64,000 nucleotides of DNA from Streptomyces sp. Y2F8-2 (GTDB lineage: Bacteria > Actinomycetota > Actinomycetes > Streptomycetales > Streptomycetaceae): the NCBI RefSeq assembly GCF_014905555.1, contig NZ_BNGS01000003.1, positions 248,001-312,000 of the forward strand. Direction: 5' to 3'. Shown here one piece after another: positions 26 to 57,129 of the stretch (position 1 is the stretch's first letter; the number at the start of each line of letters is the position of its first letter). The translations under genes and the position numbers were made by a program. Below the pieces are notes generated by a model that saw nothing but the letters and a program-made list of their open reading frames with translations, did no database searches and was not told the DNA's origin.

Positions 26-1873
26 ATGTGCGGAATCGTGGGTTACGTGGGATCGCAGTCGGCACTCGACGTCGTGATGGCCGGGCTGAAGCGGCTGGAG
101 TACCGGGGCTACGACTCGGCGGGCGTCGCCGTGCTCGCGGACGGCGGGCTGGCCGCCGCGAAGAAGGCCGGGAAGCTGGTCAACCTGGAGAAGGAGCTGG
201 TCGACCGGCCGCTGCCGACCGGCACCACCGGTATCGGGCACACCCGGTGGGCCACCCACGGCGCGCCGAACGACCCCAACGCGCACCCGCACCTCGACAA
301 CGCGGGCCGTGTCGCCGTCGTCCACAACGGGATCATCGAGAACTTCGCGCTGCTGCGCGCCGAGCTGGAGGAACGGGGCCACACCCTCACCTCCGAGACG
401 GACACCGAGGTCGTCGCGCATCTGCTCGCCGAGGAGTTCTCCGCGACCGCGGACCTCGCGGAGTCGATGCGGCTGGTGTGCCGCCGCCTGGAGGGCGCGT
501 TCACCCTGGTCGCGGTGCACGCCGACGAGCCCGACGTGGTGGTGGGCGCGCGACGCAACTCGCCGCTGGTCGTGGGCGTCGGCGAGGGCGAGGCCTTCCT
601 CGCCTCGGACGTCGCCGCGTTCATCGCCCACACCCGGTCCGCGATCGAGCTGGGCCAGGACCAGGTGGTGGAACTGCGCCGCGACGGCGTCACGGTCACC
701 GGCTTCGACGGCCGGCCCGCCGACGTGCACTCGTACCACGTCGACTGGGACGCCTCGGCCGCCGAGAAGGGCGGCTACGACTACTTCATGCTCAAGGAGA
801 TCGCCGAGCAGCCCAAGGCGGTCGCCGACACGCTCCTCGGCCGTATCGACGCGGCTGGTTCGCTGCGCCTGGACGAGCTGCGCATCTCGCCCGCCGAACT
901 GCGCGAGGTCGACAAGGTGGTGATCGTGGCCTGCGGGACCGCCTTCCACGCCGGGCTGATCGCCAAGTACGCCATCGAGCACTGGACGCGGATCCCCTGC
1001 GAGGTCGAACTGGCCAGCGAGTTCCGTTACCGGGACCCCATCCTCGACCCGCGCACCCTGGTCATCGCCATCTCCCAGTCCGGCGAGACCATGGACACCC
1101 TGATGGCCCTGCGGCACGCCCGCGAGCAGGGCTCCAAGGTGCTGGCGATCTGCAACACCAACGGCTCGACGATTCCCAGGGAGTCGGACGCGGTCCTGTA
1201 CACGCACGCGGGGCCGGAAGTCGCGGTGGCCTCCACGAAGGCGTTCCTGACGCAGCTCGTCGCCTGCTACCTGGTGGCCCTGTATCTGGGCCAGGTGCGC
1301 GGCACCAAATGGGGCGACGAGATCCACGTCGTCATCCGCGATCTGTCGAAGATCTCCGACGAGGTCGAGCGGGTCCTGGAGACCATGGAGCCGGTACGCC
1401 GGCTGGCGCGTTCCCTCGCCGACAAGAACACGGTGCTGTTCCTCGGACGGCACGTCGGCTACCCGGTCGCCCTGGAAGGCGCCCTCAAGCTCAAGGAACT
1501 GGCGTACATGCACGCCGAGGGCTTCGCCGCGGGGGAGCTGAAGCACGGGCCGATCGCGCTGATCGAGCAGGACCTGCCGGTGGTCGTGGTGGTGCCCTCG
1601 CCGCGCGGACGCTCGGTCCTGCACGACAAGATCGTCTCCAACATCCAGGAGATCCGGGCGCGGGGTGCGCGCACGATCGTGATCGCGGAGGAGGGCGACG
1701 AGGCGGTCGTCCCGTACGCCGACCACCTGATCAGCATCCCGGCGACCCCTACCCTGCTCCAGCCGCTGGTCGCGACGGTGCCGTTGCAGGTCTTCGCGTG
1801 CGAGCTGGCGACCGCCCGGGGCAACGAGGTGGACCAGCCGCGGAACCTGGCGAAGTCCGTCACGGTGGAGTAG
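26..1873 (+). CDS. glmS: Glutamine--fructose-6-phosphate aminotransferase (isomerizing)
   Basis: Makes glucosamine-6-phosphate from fructose-6-phosphate and glutamine, the first committed step to UDP-GlcNAc for peptidoglycan; cytosolic. The protein is 615 residues, the usual length. It begins MCGIVGYVG, so the N-terminal nucleophile Cys2 of the class II glutamine amidotransferase domain is present; residues about 1-220 are that domain. Two SIS sugar-isomerase domains follow: the first includes the SQSGETMDT segment, and the protein ends in the conserved DQPRNLAKSVTVE tail. The start is fixed by Cys2. It converges on the next gene and shares a hairpin terminator with it. Very sure of the function. 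Confidence 0.98.
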   Translation: MCGIVGYVGSQSALDVVMAGLKRLEYRGYDSAGVAVLADGGLAAAKKAGKLVNLEKELVDRPLPTGTTGIGHTRWATHGAPNDPNAHPHLDNAGRVAVVHNGIIENFALLRAELEERGHTLTSETDTEVVAHLLAEEFSATADLAESMRLVCRRLEGAFTLVAVHADEPDVVVGARRNSPLVVGVGEGEAFLASDVAAFIAHTRSAIELGQDQVVELRRDGVTVTGFDGRPADVHSYHVDWDASAAEKGGYDYFMLKEIAEQPKAVADTLLGRIDAAGSLRLDELRISPAELREVDKVVIVACGTAFHAGLIAKYAIEHWTRIPCEVELASEFRYRDPILDPRTLVIAISQSGETMDTLMALRHAREQGSKVLAICNTNGSTIPRESDAVLYTHAGPEVAVASTKAFLTQLVACYLVALYLGQVRGTKWGDEIHVVIRDLSKISDEVERVLETMEPVRRLARSLADKNTVLFLGRHVGYPVALEGALKLKELAYMHAEGFAAGELKHGPIALIEQDLPVVVVVPSPRGRSVLHDKIVSNIQEIRARGARTIVIAEEGDEAVVPYADHLISIPATPTLLQPLVATVPLQVFACELATARGNEVDQPRNLAKSVTVE

Positions 1874-54908: not shown

Positions 54909-55199
54909 TCAGATCCGGCCCCGGCACAGCTCCAGCAGGGTCATCGCGAGGGCCGTGCCGGGCTTGCCCAGCGCGTCCCGGTAGTGGCCGAGGACCTCCA
55001 TCTCACGGGAGAGGTTCACGCGCCGGCCGCCGGAGGCGATACGGGCCTCCTGGATGACGGCGGAGACGGCCATCCGTTCCTGGATGAGACCGATGATCCG
55101 GTCGTCGAGCGAGTCGATGCGTTCACGGGCGTCGCTGATCAGGTGCGCGGCGTCGTCGCTGCGGGCGCCGGTCTTCTCGGTGGCTGCGGTGGCGGTCAT
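54909..55199 (-). CDS. Chorismate mutase (AroQ class)
   Basis: Converts chorismate to prephenate, the branch to Phe and Tyr; cytosolic. The 96-residue protein is of the all-helical AroQ class: ARERIDSLDDRIIGLIQERMAVSAVIQEARIASGG (helix 1 with Arg and the Lys/Gln region), then a short loop and VNLSREMEVLGHYRDALG. GAGGAG precedes the ATG 55199. Its 5' region (55200-55423) contains a short Phe-rich peptide frame and a terminator-like stem. Divergent from guaA. Confidence 0.92.
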   Translation of the reverse strand: MTATAATEKTGARSDDAAHLISDARERIDSLDDRIIGLIQERMAVSAVIQEARIASGGRRVNLSREMEVLGHYRDALGKPGTALAMTLLELCRGRI

Positions 55200-55257
55200 G
55201 CGGGGCTCCTCGTGGACGGGTGCGCGGTGCCCCGGAGCGACAGGACCCGGGAAAACG

Positions 55258-55294
55258 CCAGGCGCCCCGGACCTTGTCGGCCCGGGGCGCCTGG
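55258..55294 (-). terminator. Attenuator-type hairpin before chorismate mutase
   Basis: A perfect 13-bp stem (arms 55258-55270 and 55282-55294, 11-base loop). On the minus strand it is followed by CGTTTTCC. It lies between the leader peptide frame and the start of chorismate mutase, the right position for a regulated terminator. Confidence 0.7.
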
Positions 55295-55313
55295 GAAGTC
55301 GCTTGTCAGTAGC

Positions 55314-55388
55314 TCAAGCAGCACGACCATGGCAGCCGGCGGGCCGGTTGCCATAGGTAAAGACGAAGATCGTCGCGCGCTTGAACAT
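55314..55388 (-). CDS. Phe/Tyr-rich leader peptide of chorismate mutase
   Basis: A 24-codon frame from ATG 55388 to TGA 55314. Phe is at positions 2, 8 and 10 and Tyr at 12, in a run that begins [12 protein letters not shown]. The codons after position 12 (55331-55352) form a 10-bp hairpin that could pair alternatively with the terminator. No ribosome-binding site precedes it; the promoter hexamers place transcription start at about the A of the ATG, so the message is probably leaderless. Function as an attenuator sensing Phe/Tyr-tRNA is inferred from codon content and position. Confidence 0.65.
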
Positions 55389-55394
55389 GGGGCC

Positions 55395-55423
55395 AGTATG
55401 CCGTGGGGGAGGGCGGCGTCCAA
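55395..55423 (-). promoter_or_regulatory. Promoter of the leader peptide/chorismate mutase transcript
   Basis: On the minus strand TTGGAC (55423-55418), 17 bases, CATACT (55400-55395), then six bases to the ATG of the leader frame. A vegetative-type promoter with ideal spacing. Confidence 0.7.
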
Positions 55424-55546
55424 AGCGGCCCGCATGGTGAGACGTGCTCCACAGGCGGCCGCCCTGGCAGCGGCGGGACGGCACCCACGGCCACCTCGGT
55501 AGAATCGGGTGGCACAAGGACCCGCCCAACCGCCGGAAGGCACCCC

Positions 55547-57129
<1,583 letters not shown>

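Follow-up and report, generated by a model that had tools for sequence, protein, structure and literature searches.

A candidate leaderless Phe/Tyr attenuator precedes the chorismate mutase gene aroQ of Streptomyces

The enzyme encoded by aroQ commits chorismate to phenylalanine and tyrosine rather than to tryptophan, and in Streptomyces sp. Y2F8-2 this gene is preceded by a short open frame and a terminator-like hairpin. Do these elements form a switch, placed ahead of the committing step, by which the supply of the two amino acids sets transcription of the gene? A first-pass annotation of the 64,000-nt stretch of DNA analysed here (contig NZ_BNGS01000003.1, positions 248,001 to 312,000; hereafter the window) had proposed Phe/Tyr attenuation with a leaderless peptide. 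From comparison of many loci we conclude that the element is very likely a real attenuator of the classical kind. The features to which we refer are as follows, all on the minus strand and in window coordinates:

55418–55423, minus: −35-like hexamer TTGGAC, read from the sequence
55395–55400, minus: −10 hexamer CATACT, 6 nt 5′ of the leader ATG
55314–55388, minus: predicted leaderless leader; ATG 55388–55386, 24 codons, TGA 55316–55314
55353–55361, minus: control codons TTT ACC TAT (Phe10-Thr11-Tyr12), conserved across loci
55365–55367, minus: control codon TTC (Phe8), two codons 5′ of the core; Phe in 140 and Tyr in 9 of 178 distinct chorismate-mutase leaders
55327–55356, minus: hairpin H1 (protector), at and 3′ of the Tyr codon
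55340–55346, minus: predicted antiterminator 5′ strand, CGGCCCG
55278–55284, minus: predicted antiterminator 3′ strand, CGGGCCG, within the terminator 5′ arm and loop
55301–55319, minus: stop-codon helix P3, GCTTG (55319–55315) with CAAGC (55305–55301)
55375–55386, minus: helix P0, 5′-end strand; its partner in the minimum-energy fold is 55324–55312
55312–55324, minus: pre-stop strand, common to P0 and P3
55258–55294, minus: predicted intrinsic terminator, 16-bp stem, then CG and TTTT (55255–55252)
54909–55199, minus: aroQ, chorismate mutase type II, 96 aa; SD GAGGAG 55211–55206; Pfam PF01817 (CM_2), E 5.4e-8

The layout is as the first-pass annotation had given it: TTGGAC, a 17-nt spacer, CATACT, 6 nt and the ATG all read at the places claimed, the 24-codon frame carries Phe at 2, 8 and 10 and Tyr at 12, and aroQ has its GAGGAG at 55211–55206 and its ATG at 55199. 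The promoter had also been called ideal, which overstates its quality; against the consensus TTGACA/TATAAT, the −35 hexamer agrees at 3/6 positions and the −10 hexamer at 4/6. Despite this imperfect match, relatives keep the −10 box and its spacing from the start codon: where a −10 was detected (202 loci), the gap measures 6 nt at 122 loci, 7 nt at 79 and 5 nt at one. A TTG-initial hexamer stands at a spacer of 17 in 45, 18 in 27 and 19 in 38 of the 155 Streptomyces loci with a detected −10, and in none of these 155 is there an SD-like motif 5′ of the leader start. Divergent from aroQ lies guaA (GMP synthase; 55403–57127, plus strand), whose open frame reaches back across the putative attenuator promoter.

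Of 150 genomes surveyed in the window's genus, 147 carry a chorismate mutase gene, and 80 named chorismate mutase records (79 titled Streptomyces, one Microtetraspora) were added; the 170 loci inspected comprise 90 from the genus survey (30 + 60) and the 80 named, with 57 further gene-bearing survey genomes outside the sample. A similar leader lies 5′ of the gene in 169 of these loci, the exception (L115) being cut by a contig edge. All 169 carry the core [F/G][T/S/I]YG, Phe-bearing in every case except L117; the core codons TTT ACC TAT are identical in 162, and the start is ATG in 156 and GTG in 13. The start had been picked in frame with the core in this survey, and the frame was tested separately by way of the promoter: the best −10 up to 75 nt 5′ of the core was taken, with extra weight for five −10 hexamers known from these loci, and then the first ATG or GTG 4–9 nt downstream. 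Among 229 loci of all groups the core was found in 221 (8 had none at that stage) and the start in 202 (19 had no detectable −10 plus start), and the two were in frame in 202/202. With duplicates removed, the start and an F-x-Y core were in frame in 184/184 distinct sequences with a detectable −10, even though the distance between them took eight values (18, 21, 24, 27, 30, 33, 42 and 51 nt). Together, the narrow range of gaps between −10 and start, the lack of an SD and this unbroken agreement in frame give the start context the look of a leaderless frame, and we treat it as a predicted leader.

The core Phe is present in 177 of the 178 distinct chorismate-mutase leaders, and a Tyr follows two codons later in 175 and immediately after the Phe in the other three. 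Phe2, which had been counted with the other Phe codons, is not conserved among relatives. Both core codons are rare in the window, TTT making up 2.1% of Phe codons (6/287) and TAT 5.0% of Tyr codons (15/300) in 32 ORFs picked by codon-position GC, yet they are nearly fixed in the leader core. The N-terminus of the leader is variable; beyond it, the peptide FTYG(T/N)(G/R)P.GCHGRAA is conserved in many Streptomyces, and at L065, L131, L144, L168, L228, L230 and L237 the frame shifts 3′ of the core while the RNA is kept alike. Bearing in mind both the near-fixed rare codons and these later frame changes, we suggest that the core is read as codons and that what follows it in the leader serves as RNA. 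The first-pass annotation had expected that the Phe/Tyr codons, both stems and the promoter-adjacent ATG would be kept in relatives while other positions vary; this is the pattern found, and it holds within Streptomyces, across further genera of the family and, before the same gene, in two more families. As in attenuators of the trpL/pheL type, a short leader ORF thus carries control codons for the end products of the pathway.

The RNA itself is strongly structured: a 184-nt stretch folds at −95.6 kcal/mol, whereas shuffles average −71.8 ± 4.2 (z −5.6; 0/200 as low). The terminator had been described as a perfect 13-bp stem with TTTT; the 13 perfect pairs and the TTTT are there, but the full stem is 16 bp (13, then a G-U, then two more) around a 5-nt loop. 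Likewise, the stem in the late codons exists as a hairpin (55356–55327, H1), but it has 8 + 4 bp in the minimum-energy fold and not the 10 bp given. Covariation of H1 and the terminator was scored in 59 of 60 sequences, aligned to the model and hence fitted to these helices: 98.7% of cells are paired and 8 pairs show double changes, with 0/500 shuffles as high and no slid register close. The interval between leader and gene therefore holds a conserved, covarying stem, as expected of an intrinsic terminator; its U-tract is short (mean 3.9 T in the 10 nt 3′ of the stem; 225 loci), a point against the reading.

The first-pass annotation had also proposed a competing fold. CGGCCCG (55346–55340) is indeed the exact complement of CGGGCCG (55284–55278). 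RNAalifold did not recover this antiterminator from 58 chorismate-mutase sequences running up to the terminator loop, and the pairing register shifts between groups, so we relied on a partner-swap test, in which the apex of H1 is duplexed with its own terminator apex or with that of another locus; the permutations leave relatedness in. In a balanced set of 49, cognate partners averaged −15.84 kcal/mol and swapped ones −14.80 ± 0.23 (0/5000); for all 101 distinct sequences the values were −16.23 and −15.63 ± 0.12 (0/5000). The competing fold thus passes at the level of the set. Taken one by one, the sequences are less striking: the mean is −13.8 for base-shuffled leaders and −15.8 for the real ones, and in this genome 26% of shuffles pair as well as the actual antiterminator strands. 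The pair reads CGGCCCG/CGGGCCG in Streptomyces, AACCCGG/CCGGGTT and GCTGGTCCGG/CCGGACCGGT in other genera, GAGTCCGG/CCGGGCTC 5′ of chorismate mutase in other families, and TACCGGCCC/GGGCCGGTA before DAHP synthase.

Two further helices share strands with these. P3 is an exact complement in 63 of 124 cognate cases, the mean under 500 permutations being 26.1 and the maximum 37; taken singly, the P3 stem is matched by 29% of shuffles on average in Streptomyces, and it is missing from the DAHP-synthase set (0/13 in one test, 0/12 in another). The mRNA 5′ end pairs better with its own pre-stop segment than with a swapped one (0/200 swaps as good for 124 chorismate-mutase loci, 2/200 for 36 non-Streptomyces loci, 0/200 for 12 DAHP-synthase loci). 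These results fit a model of two folds that share strands, a terminating one (P0, H1 and terminator) and an antiterminating one (antiterminator and P3).

How would a stalled ribosome choose between them? We computed antiterminator pairing as equilibrium sums on partial RNA, with the ribosome footprint assumed to end 13 nt from the codon's first base. In this genome, the RNA that a ribosome stalled at Phe would leave uncovered is predicted to form a nested antiterminator at −34.1 kcal/mol, in which GCUUG/CAAGC pairs across the stop codon; pairing was 0.64 for the Phe-stalled state, 0.00 for free RNA, 0.21 for the Tyr-stalled state and 0.58 with the ribosome at the stop codon. In the same order, the means were 0.63, 0.31, 0.40 and 0.50 for 111 Streptomyces, and 0.69, 0.26, 0.51 and 0.44 for 34 family sequences. 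The Phe-stalled value exceeds that of free RNA by 0.2 in 66 of the 111 Streptomyces, and that of the stop state by 0.2 in only 27. For 15 DAHP-synthase sequences (0.51, 0.57, 0.39 and 0.62), the free and stop states both lie above the Phe-stalled one, contrary to what the model predicts. Stalling accordingly favours the antiterminator over free RNA in Streptomyces, though little over the stop state, and does not do so in the DAHP-synthase set; equilibrium folding backs the proposed switch only in part.

We propose, with considerable confidence, that the element 5′ of aroQ responds to the levels of charged tRNA-Phe and tRNA-Tyr by ribosome-mediated attenuation of transcription. Transcription would start at or very near the ATG, and a ribosome would load straight onto the 5′ end. 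Were Phe- or Tyr-tRNA scarce, it would stall on TTT or TAT and mask the 5′ side of H1 and part of P0; the apex of H1 (CGGCCCG) could then pair with the top of the terminator 5′ arm (CGGGCCG) in the nested antiterminator that also holds P3, and RNA polymerase would read through into aroQ. With both tRNAs plentiful, the ribosome would reach the stop codon and break P3, H1 and P0 would re-form, the terminator would fold and aroQ expression would be low. The comparison argues for the frame, the control codons, the promoter distance, the terminator and the covariation of the competing helices, and from these we infer the start site, translation, termination and the direction of the response; the first-pass reading is upheld to the same extent, the conserved frame, codons, stems and promoter distance supporting it and the mechanism being our extrapolation. 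Since compounds of the Phe/Tyr pathway feed many natural products, such a switch would offer a handle for strain engineering.

A leader frame followed by a terminator would also be found in a sensor of translation in general, of the whiB7-leader type, where any slow ribosome, for instance one slowed by antibiotics, gives read-through and the Phe/Tyr codons are incidental; in the accessible part of one paper, uORF-controlled attenuation of whiB7 is described in another actinobacterium (PMC13236596). We consider this unlikely, as no part of the peptide is better conserved than its aromatic codons and these fit the pathway step encoded by the downstream gene, and a sensor of aromatic amino acids may itself also respond to general stalling. 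Retention of the peptide in many Streptomyces might instead suggest a nascent chain that arrests its own ribosome, but a variable N-terminus, post-core frame changes in several loci that retain the RNA, and the near-fixation of the exact codons TTT and TAT make this very unlikely.

One might also ask whether terminator and small frame are conserved without any amino-acid regulation of aroQ. Our support is drawn from sequence comparison, with folding in partial agreement, which is in keeping with that view; it would, however, leave both the covarying competing helices and the co-occurrence of element and gene (see below) without a role, and we give it a very slim chance. Direct binding of a ligand or a tRNA, by a riboswitch or T-box, would be compatible with a structured leader and a terminator, but the window has no Rfam match at a gathering threshold (the five found with E up to 10 all score below theirs) and the in-frame core would go unexplained; we judge its probability to be negligible. 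Ribosome-mediated attenuation by Phe and Tyr codons is the reading we retain.

How does this attenuator compare with known systems? The aroR-aroF attenuator of Corynebacterium glutamicum was reportedly described by Neshat in 2014. So far as the accessible parts of two papers go (PMC11802643, PMC4046766), its aroF leader peptide contains Phe-Tyr-Phe and transcription rises under Phe limitation; the two systems, likened by description only, have in common an actinobacterial aromatic leader peptide 5′ of an aromatic-pathway gene, but in C. glutamicum this gene is DAHP synthase rather than chorismate mutase, and Tyr availability is reportedly without effect. The C. glutamicum position, 5′ of a DAHP synthase gene aroF, is not that of the present element, whose DAHP-synthase relatives occur in other families. 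The first-pass annotation knew of no leader for chorismate mutase. We found none for this gene either in what could be searched, but the available part of PMC11802643 provides a precedent for the activity in Escherichia coli pheL-pheA, where a Phe leader peptide precedes an attenuated gene with chorismate mutase activity; by description, that gene is a CM-PDT fusion in a proteobacterium, whereas here a 96-aa AroQ is preceded by a leader with a leaderless start and a conserved Tyr codon. The first-pass annotation had set the leaderless peptide apart from the usual Phe/Tyr architecture. Its leaderless look is borne out, but such peptides are already described in Streptomyces lividans TK24, where the portion of PMC8079986 at hand gives eight leader peptides or attenuators (leuL, trpL, thrL and others), most of them leaderless. 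These share with the present element genus, hairpins and amino-acid genes; none of the eight, in the accessible part of that transcriptome paper, serves Phe, Tyr or chorismate mutase.

The accessible part of a comparative survey from 2005 has Actinobacteria without conserved RNA regulatory structures before phenylalanine or tyrosine operons (PMC1262725); despite this, a candidate RNA switch stands in nearly every Streptomyces locus inspected here. Chorismate goes unmentioned in the accessible portions of PMC4833913, PMC2965389 and PMC13236596, that of PMC12125101 holds nothing relevant, and a search under SCO4784 gave no papers. No prior report of the aroQ element was found in the searchable literature, most subscription papers lying outside its scope, and within what could be searched an attenuator is unreported for the chorismate mutase gene.

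We followed the distribution of the element with a model (R1) built from 41 sequences. At E ≤ 0.01, R1 matches 129 of 150 family genomes; the window's genus, with 38 genomes listed, contributes 37 of these. Its weak matches in genus g14 probably arise by chance, and this genome has one strong match. Of 15 genomes with no match (10) or a weak one (5), 14 are without such a chorismate mutase at E ≤ 0.001 and the other has only a 28% relative; by these matches, the predicted element and the chorismate mutase gene go together. Across the class, R1 matches 57 of 296 genomes at E ≤ 1e-4, among them 27 of the window's genus. Twenty of the 30 non-genus genomes were inspected, the other ten all having E values of 1.5e-5 or weaker. 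In four, from families f31 and f37, the match lies 5′ of chorismate mutase, with leaders such as VSDRRSYFYYGTGSPAAVGRA and MTRSAYFYGTGFFYEKSPAAVDAV; in the other 16 it lies 5′ of DAHP synthase, the frame being printed in 12 and represented in four by another frame of like sequence. Fragments at L290 and L296 match PF18152 (the ferredoxin-like domain of DAHP synthase), the synthase domain falling under the cut-off in short fragments. Leaders of the type MQ..FWRFYGYRP follow TATAGT in 15 of these 16 loci; at L290 we read RNRFFSYG in a GTG frame by eye, and no −10 was found.

A second model (R2), built from those 15 loci, finds more DAHP-synthase leaders in family f17: MRTAWSFWYGDGP, MRTAFWFWYGDGP, MRTAFLFWYGDGP, MRNLVYFFRYDRP (without Trp), VRNALRWGFYGQP and MRDARWSFFYDRP. 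Of 17 R2 places inspected, weaker matches being left out, 13 are aromatic leaders of family f17 (the synthase frame is printed for seven), L347 is a thrS leader, and at L343, L344 and L345 an aromatic leader was not seen. R2 also matches the Streptomyces chorismate-mutase elements (best E 8e-11), and the two leader groups have short GC-rich parts in common. Before chorismate mutase the leader residues are Phe and Tyr, and before DAHP synthase mostly Phe, Trp and Tyr: of the 15 DAHP-synthase leaders tabulated, 14 contain Trp, whereas only 25 of the 178 chorismate-mutase leaders do, 20 of them exclusively 3′ of the core. Leader content would thus follow the products of the step controlled, and the DAHP-synthase leaders provide a clean test case for codon content against pathway position. 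We lean, with reserve, towards a single family of leaderless aromatic attenuators across Actinomycetes, moved or arisen in parallel at chorismate mutase (Phe/Tyr codons) and DAHP synthase (Phe/Trp/Tyr codons), in which leaderless initiation is part of the mechanism and the mRNA 5′ end a strand of the switch.

Leaderless frames with abundant Phe, Tyr and, for the most part, Trp, of several sequence types and most ending in LR, precede DAHP synthase with a ferredoxin-like domain at many family f17 loci (L278, L279, L281–L289, L291, L292, L295, L296, L304–L324, L333–L342, L346, L348 and L349). In this genome, no leaderless Phe/Tyr leader was found in the 420 nt upstream of class II DAHP synthase (the best of the matches) or in the 330 nt upstream of prephenate dehydratase. 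Upstream of the same class II DAHP synthase (L299), we noted by eye a divergent trpL-like frame on the opposite strand with three consecutive Trp codons. At L347, also in this genome (G000:C4:715200-716400; hit 123–235, plus strand), a leader frame MKRAAMTTTPESVPAR with a hairpin was seen by eye before a threonyl-tRNA synthetase-like frame, and it resembles S. lividans thrL as given in the accessible part of PMC8079986.
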